Positions 2,237 to 13,592 of a stretch of DNA of 21,657 bases are shown one piece after another. Position numbers and translations under genes: made by a program. Position 1 is the stretch's first letter; every line of letters begins with the position of its first letter. Under the pieces are notes generated by a model. It made no database searches and was not told the origin of the DNA. It worked only from the letters and a program-made list of their open reading frames with translations. This DNA comes from a virus, in the IMG/VR virus record IMGVR_UViG_3300050032_000260, positions 1-21,657 of that record. One strand, 5' to 3'.

Positions 2237-3301
2237 TTATCGTTCTGTTTCGAGGTAGGCGGTTACGAACGCCGCCGCGCACGCCGGGACGATCGCGTTA
2301 CCGTAGGCACGCAGGCGTCCCACGCGGTTGGGAACCCCATGAGCCAGCGGGAATGAGCCGGGTTCAACGCGCCGCGAGCGGCCGTCGAGGCAGGGGATGA
2401 GGGAGTAATCGCTCCAGTAGCTAAGGCCGCTTGATCGTCCAGATTGAGCGTGTGACCTTGCGCAATCCGCTCCATCGCTTTCTCCGGATTCGTTTGCAAC
2501 CCTCCGCGCGTCTCCGGTATTGCATTGGGTGATCGCCACCCCGCCAGCATCGCGATCTCGCTCAACGGCCGCGCGTTCCGTTCGAGCGTCCGTTCGCTCG
2601 CCTGGCCGTTCTTCCAGTCGCGCGACGATGTGGTCGGCCAGCCGGTCAACACTAACGCTACCGTCTTTCTCGACGAATCGTTGTTCCCCGCTTCGTTGTA
2701 CGTCTCGGTCGCGGGCGTTCCGGCCATCGGACTCGGCCAGCCGCTCAACCCTTTCATCGGCGCGTTCCCATGGCTGTCCGGTTCTCCCCATTTGTTTGAT
2801 CGTGGACTCGGCCACCCACCATAACCTTTGCCGGATGTGCGGCGCCCCGACGCCCGCAGCGCACAGATCGGCGGCCCCGACTCCATATCCCAGCATTTCC
2901 AAGTCAGATCGTACTCCGGCGAGCCATCGCTTCCCATCCGCGCTCGCAACCTGCTCTCCAAACAGCGCTGGAGGCGCGCCGTATGCGATAAGCCGCAGGA
3001 ACTCCGGCCATAAGTGCCGTTCATCTTCGATTCCCTTTCGTTTTCCCGCCGCGCTGAACGGCTGGCAGGGGCAGCTCCCGGTCCAGACGGACCTGCCGTC
3101 CGGCCATCCGGCCATTCGCAGCGCGAGCGGCCATCCGCCGATTCCGGCGAAGAAGTGACATTGTGTGAATCCTTCGATATCTCCACTCGTTACCTCCTGG
3201 ATCGGACGGTTATCGACATACCCGTCCGGTAATTCGCCCGCTTCGATCAGGTTTTCGAGCCAGCGGCAGCAGTACGGGTCGTTGTCGTTGTAATAATTCA
3301 C
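2237..3301 (-). CDS. dcm: DNA (cytosine-5-)-methyltransferase, phage type
   Basis: It transfers a methyl group from S-adenosylmethionine to C5 of cytosine in a specific DNA site, usually to protect phage DNA from restriction. Of 354 residues, motif I FAGIGG (51-56) binds the cofactor, and motif IV GSCPCQPFSAAGK carries the catalytic Cys79. GEQV (115-118) stands where many enzymes have ENV; this substitution is typical of the phage branch. HIRQRLWWVA (155-164) matches motif VIII. Residues about 165-320 are a hydrophilic variable region. Motifs IX-X end with GRLRAYGNAIVP (328-339). The length is normal. The start is GTG (3301), five bases after the cupin stop and without a clear ribosome-binding site, so it is probably coupled to the cupin. 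The recognition site cannot be read from sequence. A second long frame lies within it. Confidence 0.93.
   Translation of the reverse strand: MNYYNDNDPYCCRWLENLIEAGELPDGYVDNRPIQEVTSGDIEGFTQCHFFAGIGGWPLALRMAGWPDGRSVWTGSCPCQPFSAAGKRKGIEDERHLWPEFLRLIAYGAPPALFGEQVASADGKRWLAGVRSDLEMLGYGVGAADLCAAGVGAPHIRQRLWWVAESTIKQMGRTGQPWERADERVERLAESDGRNARDRDVQRSGEQRFVEKDGSVSVDRLADHIVARLEERPGERTDARTERAAVERDRDAGGVAITQCNTGDARRVANESGESDGADCARSHAQSGRSSGLSYWSDYSLIPCLDGRSRRVEPGSFPLAHGVPNRVGRLRAYGNAIVPACAAAFVTAYLETER
2263..3024 (-). CDS. Overlapping gene inside dcm: phage WPTP-repeat protein, 253 aa
   Basis: It lies on the same strand as the methyltransferase but in another frame, fully inside it. The frame is open for 307 codons; ATG 3024 is preferred (AGGGA about 8 bases upstream, and family-like N-terminus). 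It has features of a phage protein family I recall: SPEYDLTWKCWDMESGPPICALRAS (positions 35-59) is the typical N-terminal segment. Repeated tryptophan motifs follow: WPSP at 71 and 96, WPTT at 129 with SRDWKNG, and NARPLSEIAMLAGW. LNPAHSRWLMGFPTAWD (220-236) is the usual C-terminal signature. Such order is not expected by chance in a shadow frame. The function is unknown; it may be a partner of the methyltransferase. Alternatively it is a fossil frame conserved only because the two proteins constrain each other. Confidence 0.6.
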   Translation of the reverse strand: MNGTYGRSSCGLSHTARLQRCLESRLRARMGSDGSPEYDLTWKCWDMESGPPICALRASGRRTSGKGYGGWPSPRSNKWGEPDSHGNAPMKGLSGWPSPMAGTPATETYNEAGNNDSSRKTVALVLTGWPTTSSRDWKNGQASERTLERNARPLSEIAMLAGWRSPNAIPETRGGLQTNPEKAMERIAQGHTLNLDDQAALATGAITPSSPASTAARGALNPAHSRWLMGFPTAWDACVPTVTRSSRRARRRS

Positions 3302-3306
3302 TTCGG

Positions 3307-3639
3307 TTACAGGTATCGCGATTCCTCGATCCGCGTAACGTCTTCCTCATCGTGGATCGTTCCCGCCTCAATAATCACCGCTTCATAACCGGCCGCTACC
3401 TGGAACCGATGCGGCGTCCCCGCGGGAATATGGATCGACTTGCCTTTCGATAGAATGTGCATGGTGCTGCCGACCTGGATCAGCACTCCTCCCTCGACCA
3501 CCAGGAATGTCTCGGTCTTCTTCGTATGGTAATGCAGGCTGCTGATCCCGCTGCGCTTCAGGACAAGCGTCTTCATCGAGTAACCGTCGGTGTTATGGTG
3601 GATCAGTTCGTATCCCCAGCGTTTATCAATTCGTTCCAT
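3307..3639 (-). CDS. Small cupin-domain protein, 110 aa
   Basis: A single cupin barrel, like the C-terminal half of type II mannose-6-phosphate isomerases and stand-alone sugar-nucleotide-associated cupins. SLHYHTKKTETFLVVEG (about 34-50) matches cupin motif 1: two histidines and a glutamate as metal ligands. SIHIPAGTPHRF matches motif 2 with the third histidine. It may be a metal-dependent isomerase or a sugar- or nucleotide-binding protein; substrate not determinable. The start is ATG 3639 with AGGA 8-9 bases upstream. The stop is 5 bases before the methyltransferase start, so they are probably one operon. Cupins are uncommon but known as phage cargo genes; a link to surface sugar or modified-base metabolism is inference. 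Confidence 0.85.
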   Translation of the reverse strand: MERIDKRWGYELIHHNTDGYSMKTLVLKRSGISSLHYHTKKTETFLVVEGGVLIQVGSTMHILSKGKSIHIPAGTPHRFQVAAGYEAVIIEAGTIHDEEDVTRIEESRYL

Positions 3640-11255: not shown

Positions 11256-13592
11256 TTGTGGTGTTTCGACGTGTATAGCCCACGTATCATCACCGCCTCG
11301 ATCGACCGCTACCTCGCTCACCCATCAAACCACGGCCTCGCTCTGAACGAGGTTTCGATCGTCGAGTTCCAGCGCGCCGTCGCGCACTTCGACTCGCTCG
11401 TCCAGCCGGACGAGAACGGCCGCCTGATCCCTACCCGCTCCGTAACGCCCGACGGCCGCCAGGTCTTCGACTCGACCGGCCGTCCGCTCCTTACTTGGAA
11501 AGACACCCTGACCGACGAGGAGCGCGACTGGATGCGCCAGCAGCGCGTCCTTTGCGCCCTCAACTTCTGGTACTGGGTTGAGCGCGCGGTGTGGATCAAG
11601 GACACCGACAAGCAAACAGTACGGATGAAACTGTGGAAGTCGCAGGAAATCTTCCTCAATATCGTTGCCGAGATGGAAGACCTGGGAGTAGCGATCTTCC
11701 TCATCATCCTGAAGGCGCGCCAGCTCGGGATCTCGCGTATCATCACGCTCATCATCCTGCACCGGGTTGTGTTCGACGCCGACGTAAACGCCTACCTTGC
11801 GTCGAGCACTGATAAGAAAACGCTCAAGCTATTCAAATTGATCTCGTTCGTCCTGGTCCGCTTGCCTTACTGGATGCAGCCGGGATCGTCTCAACCGGGA
11901 AAGCTCGGCAAGGTGGACCAGGCCGGCCGTCTGCTCGAATTCTTCAACGGCAGCGCGATTACCATGGAACATGGCCAGATGGCCACGGGTATGGGACGCG
12001 GCGATTCGCCTAACGTCGCACACCTGAGCGAACTCGCGGAATTCTCCGACATGGATGAGTTAGTCGATTCTTCCCTCCTTCGCGGTATGCACCCTTCGCC
12101 TCGCGCCTTCCTGGCTCTGGAAGGAACAGCGAAAGGGATTCATAACTCCTGGCACAACCACTGGGAAGCGGCAAAGGAAGAGTGGCCGCAGGGAAAGAGC
12201 CGGTTAAGACCTCTGTTCCTCCCCTGGTTCGTCGGCGGCCTCTACCCGAAGCCGGTCGATCTGATCGCCCGTCCCGTCCCTGCGGACTACTCCACTACGA
12301 TAGCTCCGTGGGCGGTCGCTCACGCGCGGATGGCCGAATCGTACGTCAAGTCGAACGATTACCTCACGAAATACCTCGGTTCCAACTGGTCGATGCCGCT
12401 CGAACAAATCTGGTATTACGAGTGCGAGCGCGGCGACGCGATCCGCAAAAATACCTTACCGAAGTTCCTTTCCGAGATGCCTGCCACGGACGACGAAGCC
12501 TTTAACAGTACGAACATGACCGTGTTCGATCTCGACACGATCAACTTCTACACGACCAACACAAATGAAAAGATCCCCTGGGGCGTCTTCGGCATTCGCG
12601 GTCCCTCCGAGTTCGTGAACCCTCGTATTCAACCACCGGACGTTCTGATTGACCGTTCCAAACCGCCGATCGCGATCAACGCGAATGCCGGCGGCGGCAT
12701 CGTGATTCCGTTTGAACTCGTTCCGCTCCGCTTCCAGGGTTGGACGTACGAAACCGACTCAAAGCGCGGTTCGGTCGATAAGCTCTACGTATTCGAGCCG
12801 CCGATGGAAGGTTTCGAGTACGGCTTCGGATGCGACACGGGGGACGGCATCGACAAGGACCGTACCTGTATCGAGGGACTTCGCAAGTGGTCTCTTGAAG
12901 GATCTTCTAAGCAGGTCGTTGAATTCGCCTCGGGCCATTTGGGAGCGCTTGACGTGTGGCCCCTCTTACTTGCACTCGGTACATGGTACAGCGTTCCTAA
13001 CCGTCACGGTTACACGCAGCAGCCACGTATGGCGATCGAGTGCCGCGGCAAGGGCGATATGCCGCAACTGGTCCTCCGCCTCATGGGCTGGCACAACTTC
13101 CATTTATGGAACGACGGCAAGATCGACGCGCGCACGCTCAATCTCGACAAAGCCAATAAGCTCGGCGTCTTTACGAACTTCTACTTCCGCGCGGCCATGA
13201 TCGACCATATCGTTACGTCGCTTCGCAACGGCGAAATCGAAATCTGCTCGCCGTTCTTCGTACGCGAGATGCGCTCGCTCGAAGGCGACGAATACCTTCA
13301 GCAGTTAAGAGCGGGGCAGGGAGGACACGACGACCGGATCATGGCGCTAGGGTTCATCCATACATCGTTCGCAAAGTTCGATCCGAACTACTGGCGCGCG
13401 GCTAAGGTAATGGCCTACTCGGGTAAGAACCCTGCGATGGCCGCCTACGGAGAATCGGCGCTCTCTCCCTCCGGTTCCGGTCTGGAAACGAAGCGTCCCG
13501 ACTCTGGATCGCAGTACGCCACGTGGTCATGGGGCGCGCAATCCGACACGCGCGGCCTGCCGCAGCGGGCGGACGAACTGTTTCCTTTCTAG
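11256..13592 (+). CDS. terL: Terminase large subunit (packaging ATPase-nuclease), 778 aa
   Basis: The motor that pumps DNA into the prohead and cuts the concatemer. ATPase domain: LKARQLGISR (152-161) is the deviant Walker A; VAHLSE (254-259) is Walker B with its catalytic Glu; LEGTAKG (288-294) is the coupling motif. RNase-H-like nuclease domain: GFGCDTGDG with Asp527, MAIECRGKGD with Glu595, and GGHDDRIMALGF with Asp692/693. The last 60 residues are a Ser/Gly-rich tail. At 778 residues it is longer than usual (400-650), partly through an N-terminal 130-residue extension and an insert near 440-515. The open frame begins at TTG 11256; GTG 11271 is an equal choice, and neither has a clear ribosome-binding site. 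A 16-codon ORF (11228-11278) spans this start. Confidence 0.92.
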   Translation: MWCFDVYSPRIITASIDRYLAHPSNHGLALNEVSIVEFQRAVAHFDSLVQPDENGRLIPTRSVTPDGRQVFDSTGRPLLTWKDTLTDEERDWMRQQRVLCALNFWYWVERAVWIKDTDKQTVRMKLWKSQEIFLNIVAEMEDLGVAIFLIILKARQLGISRIITLIILHRVVFDADVNAYLASSTDKKTLKLFKLISFVLVRLPYWMQPGSSQPGKLGKVDQAGRLLEFFNGSAITMEHGQMATGMGRGDSPNVAHLSELAEFSDMDELVDSSLLRGMHPSPRAFLALEGTAKGIHNSWHNHWEAAKEEWPQGKSRLRPLFLPWFVGGLYPKPVDLIARPVPADYSTTIAPWAVAHARMAESYVKSNDYLTKYLGSNWSMPLEQIWYYECERGDAIRKNTLPKFLSEMPATDDEAFNSTNMTVFDLDTINFYTTNTNEKIPWGVFGIRGPSEFVNPRIQPPDVLIDRSKPPIAINANAGGGIVIPFELVPLRFQGWTYETDSKRGSVDKLYVFEPPMEGFEYGFGCDTGDGIDKDRTCIEGLRKWSLEGSSKQVVEFASGHLGALDVWPLLLALGTWYSVPNRHGYTQQPRMAIECRGKGDMPQLVLRLMGWHNFHLWNDGKIDARTLNLDKANKLGVFTNFYFRAAMIDHIVTSLRNGEIEICSPFFVREMRSLEGDEYLQQLRAGQGGHDDRIMALGFIHTSFAKFDPNYWRAAKVMAYSGKNPAMAAYGESALSPSGSGLETKRPDSGSQYATWSWGAQSDTRGLPQRADELFPF

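Follow-up and report, generated by a model that had tools for sequence, protein, structure and literature searches.

Does a phage gene for a C5 DNA methyltransferase carry a second gene in another reading frame, and what might the second protein contribute? Long overlaps between genes on the same strand are rare in prokaryotes, and their reality is disputed. The locus lies in a 21,657-base virus record, the whole of which is referred to here as the window. The methyltransferase frame (P1) occupies 2237–3301 on the minus strand, starts with GTG and encodes 354 aa. The nested frame (P2) occupies 2263–3186 on the same strand, in the +1 frame relative to P1, also starts with GTG and encodes 307 aa. 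A 307-codon frame fully inside the methyltransferase gene had been recognised in a preliminary description and is indeed present, together with all of the peptides quoted there, but the coordinates 2263–3024 need correction: 3024 is an internal ATG that gives only 253 codons, and the 307-codon frame extends to its GTG start at 3186. The phage protein family invoked in that description also exists, P2 matching PHROG 1008 (E = 1.2e-21, residues 7–295 aligned to profile positions 14–284 of 329) and P1 matching PHROG 363 (E = 2.9e-75). The minus-strand gene at 3307–3639, which directly precedes that of the methyltransferase on its upstream side, encodes a protein with a cupin domain (PF07883, 4e-13). 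A tailed-phage origin of the window is supported by a terminase large subunit at 11256–13592 on the plus strand (PHROG 5989, 2.6e-10).

Selection on the nested frame

Selection acts on P2 as a protein-coding frame, and its start region is conserved. Relatives were gathered from IMG/VR and GTDB genomes through the P1 frame only, so openness of the P2 frame was not selected for, and the null was generated for each locus by shuffling codons among positions of equal P1 amino acid. Between the PCQP and GNAI motifs of P1, 221 non-redundant loci contain 30 P2-frame stops where 718 are expected, and most of the 30 lie a few codons from motif X, the natural end of P2. The third frame of the same loci shows no depletion (2367 stops versus 2206 expected). 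Along the gene, stop avoidance sets in between codons −48 and −36 relative to PCQP and ceases some 10 codons short of GNAI; outside that span, P2-frame stops are at or above expectation. The window alone has no stop in the P2 span, compared with 5.6 expected when the P1 protein is held fixed (P = 0.00015; 20,000 synonymous shuffles). The depletion recurs in a second, Firmicute/marine clade (Paenibacillus, lactobacilli and marine phages), with 74 stops versus 385 expected and, in the other frame, 1157 versus 1212.

Substitution patterns change along the gene in step with the overlap. Differences counted per site at P1 codon positions 1/2/3 in 73 independent pairs are.12/.09/.38 in the N-terminal region before PCQP, an ordinary coding pattern, then.14/.10/.23 from PCQP to motif VIII,.41/.32/.30 across the variable region and.18/.10/.15 immediately ahead of motif X. 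In the variable region, which lies between VIII and X, variation is thus lowest at the P1 wobble position and highest at that of P2, which identifies P2 as the better-kept frame there. Relative to the N-terminal region, P1 synonymous change is about 0.35 at codons 30–69 after PCQP, drops to 0.04–0.4 along most of the segment leading up to motif X and is back at about 1 at X itself; across most of the overlap the ratio is about 0.04–0.7, compared with about 1 outside. A column-wise codon shuffle on divergent pairs was discarded as uninformative because picking divergent pairs biases codon similarity. The preliminary description had left the choice between a true gene and an echo of methyltransferase conservation to two checks on relatives, and both favour the gene: second-frame stops are nearly absent, and methyltransferase synonymous sites do not vary freely within the overlap. 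We regard dual coding of the locus as close to certain.

In one large clade (e.g. loci L130 and L236), codons 3–18 from PCQP, with the DNA CCTTTCAGCGCGGCAGGCAAAGGA..GACGAGCGGCAC, are nearly without synonymous change. This stretch encodes the P2 peptide LSARQAKE.GLLTSGT, and its constraint is missing in the other clade.

Translation start of P2

A Shine–Dalgarno (SD) sequence followed by a P2-frame start codon is enriched at codons −52 to −34 (84 loci versus 21 expected); neither the regions on either side nor the other frame show such an excess. Of the 221 loci, 137 have no clear SD in the region of the P2 start. In the window, GTG 3186 stands behind a perfect AGGAGGT (3192–3198, minus strand) at a spacing of 5 nt, the SD being spelled by the P1 codons for Q-E-V. 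One clade has its P2 start at an ATG at −125 nt, after AAAGGAG or ACGGAG within the P1 codons for DERSIED. Stop avoidance already sets in upstream of ATG 3024, at the SD and GTG, and this ATG was therefore rejected as the main start.

A second enrichment of SD plus start codon in the P2 frame occurs at codons 0–18 from PCQP (54 versus 18 expected). It is possibly another start, with a second, shorter P2 product.

Composition of the two chains

Ordinary C5 methyltransferases carry a target-recognition domain (TRD) and motif IX between motifs VIII and X. P1 contains motifs I–VIII and X, as judged from alignments A1 and A5, a Pfam match (PF00145, E = 8.9e-16) that covers only profile positions 66–161 of 324, and a Foldseek match of its model to M.HhaI (E = 6e-8) in which about half of the HhaI residues (~170 of 327) are aligned. 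Motif I (FFAGIGGW, 3131–3154; all features in this section are on the minus strand) lies outside the constrained part of P2. The catalytic PCQP of motif IV (3059–3070) is invariant in both alignments. Motif VIII (IRQRLWWV) is located by alignment A1 at 2813–2836 and motif X (GNAIVP) at 2285–2302, where the synonymous and stop profiles mark the end of P2 constraint. The AlphaFold model of P1 is of high confidence for most of residues 1–165 and for the motif X helix; residues 199–286 have pLDDT below 50, and no folded TRD is seen. A hidden Markov model (HMM) of motif IX scores at most 3.3 bits on P1, on the motif I side, and finds nothing convincing; canonical controls score about 37 bits with this model, which was built from those same sequences. 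P1 therefore has neither of the elements, a folded TRD and an in-frame motif IX between VIII and X, that mark an ordinary single-chain enzyme. It is exactly this gap that P2 spans, in the other frame.

P2 itself has no significant Pfam or NCBIfam family, and no Pfam family was found in any of 106 P2 proteins. Its N-domain, a predicted helix and β-hairpin (...LTWK...ICALRAS; 2845–2985), is encoded over P1 motifs VI–VIII and reaches pLDDT values of about 73–89 over its blocks. The whole chain is predicted to be poorly folded on its own (pLDDT 62, pTM 0.27), which would fit a chain that needs its partner to fold but also a disordered protein, and a fold search with this model, which is too weak for the purpose, gave no structural match. 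The N-domain is followed by a segment (2413–2814) that carries W[P/R][ST][PT] repeats in P2 and reads as a low-complexity, unfolded stretch in P1. Genes that are otherwise nearly identical differ by replacement of this central cassette: in 81 pairs, median identity is 94% for P1 motifs I–VIII, 89% for the P2 N-domain, 49% for the cassette and 95% for the P2 C-terminal motif. In this exchange the segment behaves as a recognition cassette would.

The C-terminal motif of P2 (ALNPAHSRWLMGFPTAWD, 2317–2370) resembles motif IX. Its consensus, LNPxxSRWLMGFPxxW, may be compared with the canonical RLTPxECxRLMGFPxxF, and motif IX is the best local match between the P2 profile and canonical C5 methyltransferases, although the match is weak (18.5 versus 8.7–13.0 for shuffles, with one shuffle at 17.9). 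The motif IX HMM gives only a small excess on P2, and a search of the PDB with the C-motif profile returned no C5 methyltransferase. The spacing from MG to GN is 13 codons here, compared with about 20 in canonical enzymes.

The reading that we favour, with a probability of roughly 0.7, is that the locus encodes a two-subunit C5 methyltransferase whose small, target-recognition subunit is P2. One stretch of DNA would then give two proteins. P1 would be the catalytic chain, with motifs I–VIII and X. P2 would have a ribosome-binding site of its own, begin roughly 38 codons into P1 in the +1 frame, stop just past P1 motif X, and supply what P1 lacks between VIII and X, namely the exchangeable recognition cassette and a motif-IX-like segment. 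The two chains would assemble into one active enzyme. Translation of P2, its assembly with P1 and its role in recognition are inferred here from sequence comparisons and structure prediction. A likely history would be one of reciprocal overprinting, the P2 N-domain having arisen atop P1 motifs IV–VIII and the VIII–X linker of P1 being the by-product frame of P2.

A more modest account of P2, as a chance or by-product frame that stays open because the methyltransferase is conserved and its codons are GC-rich, draws on a GC content of 0.63, at which open frames are commoner, and on the P1 motifs, which impose much of the similarity among P2 sequences. The stop deficit nevertheless persists in phages of about 50% GC. 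It has no counterpart in the other frame or in 16 ordinary C5 methyltransferases that the same host genomes encode (130 stops versus 133 expected), and the synonymous constraint and SD enrichment speak against chance as well. Given the shuffles, the positional stop profile and this canonical control, we consider a chance shadow frame ruled out for practical purposes. A further route to P2 would be a programmed frameshift during translation of P1, with a product that joins the P1 N-terminus to P2. P1 synonymous change does drop sharply at CCT-TTC-AGC of PCQPFS in one large clade, and some loci have no start codon near this site; however, stop avoidance sets in 35–48 codons upstream of it, where SD plus start codon is enriched, the window has its perfect SD and GTG, and the constrained site is missing in the other clade. 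A programmed +1 shift at CCT-TTC thus finds no support beyond one clade, and we judge the frameshift route improbable.

The most serious competitor grants that P2 is real and makes it an independent protein, for example a regulator or an anti-restriction or host-takeover protein, that merely shares the methyltransferase DNA. P2 does have its own conserved N-domain, and beyond the weak C-terminal motif no fold or family ties it to methyltransferases. This proposal leaves P1 without a folded recognition domain and P2 constrained exactly where a TRD and motif IX belong; among the relatives, in both clades, none was found with P2 clearly lost and P1 intact, and two-polypeptide C5 methyltransferases have a precedent. 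We therefore hold an independent P2 to be unlikely, though clearly less so than frameshifting.

Known systems and breadth

The nearest precedent for a two-subunit enzyme is M.EcoHK31I (YGGCCR), which consists of a larger polypeptide with motifs I–VIII, X and a predicted TRD, and a smaller one with motif IX (PMC3404938); according to its title, a work cited there (ref. 18) deals with a requirement for two proteins in methylation in vitro. Compared with this published description, P1 is like the large chain in having motifs I–VIII and X without motif IX, but it has no folded TRD and the exchangeable cassette lies in P2. The gene for the large chain of M.EcoHK31I reportedly also encodes the small one, in a different frame. 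No recognisable EcoHK31I-like gene was present among a few sampled plasmid methyltransferases. M.AquI (alpha/beta) is a natural C5 methyltransferase split into two chains within the variable region (PMC3404938). Its small chain carries IX and X, whereas here GNAIVP is in the P1 frame and P2 constraint stops before it. The hidden out-of-frame HNH gene within a phage methylase of ShiLan is an inserted homing endonuclease (PMC11855218); P2, in contrast, overlaps the conserved motifs of the enzyme itself and is not HNH by Pfam scan.

Parts of the arrangement have been recorded before. PHROG keeps the P2 and P1 families separate (1008 and 363), labels both as DNA methyltransferase and does not state in these entries that one is nested in the other. 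In the Paenibacillus phages Diva (gp50) and Lily (gp63), annotators noted a +1-frame 'internal gene' in the methyltransferase, with neither a function nor a wider family assigned. Our literature search returned no description of this overlap in phages, nor of an exchangeable cassette in a nested frame. The two-polypeptide kind of enzyme is thus already known; its breadth in phages seems to be unrecognised.

Prophage loci occur in Proteobacteria, Planctomycetes, Verrucomicrobia, Nitrospira and other hosts, and the +1 frame is unusually long in single cases such as N15 gp58, epsilon15, Mycobacterium phage Zerg and Bacteroides phage BS-TP4. Most sampled records annotate just one of the two frames, and many omit P2. 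Both frames are annotated in K1ind2; in two sampled records, those of Acidovorax phage Alfacinha3 and Synechococcus phage JY39, P2 is the annotated gene and the methyltransferase frame is unannotated. The P2-frame entries at loci L362 (1048–2214) and L363 (1042–2157) read cytosine-specific methyltransferase and hypothetical protein, respectively. No natural P1–P2 fusion was found among the relatives. Two candidate fusions (L445 and L379) were rejected, all three of their frames being rotated by a single-base indel (mutation or sequencing error), and a candidate stand-alone P2 (L019) proved instead to be an HNH-like insertion plus a frame change. In that locus, a homing-endonuclease-like ORF lies at about 1850–2450 between two copies of methyltransferase motif VIII, with the frame change downstream; the insert has the look of an intron or a homing insertion.

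The overlap is backed by several statistical signals, independent of one another, across about 300 loci in phages and prophages whose hosts span many bacterial phyla. Tentatively, and at slightly less than an even chance, these loci may represent a very widespread class of phage C5 methyltransferase, with catalytic and recognition subunits in two frames, in which swapping the cassette would change specificity while leaving both proteins intact and each frame would have overprinted the other, each in its own part of the gene. With this overlap, the evolution of two proteins on shared DNA could be tested clearly. Should P2 be the recognition subunit, then many C5 methyltransferases of phages are annotated as complete while missing their specificity half, and activity tests of P1 from recoded genes would mislead.
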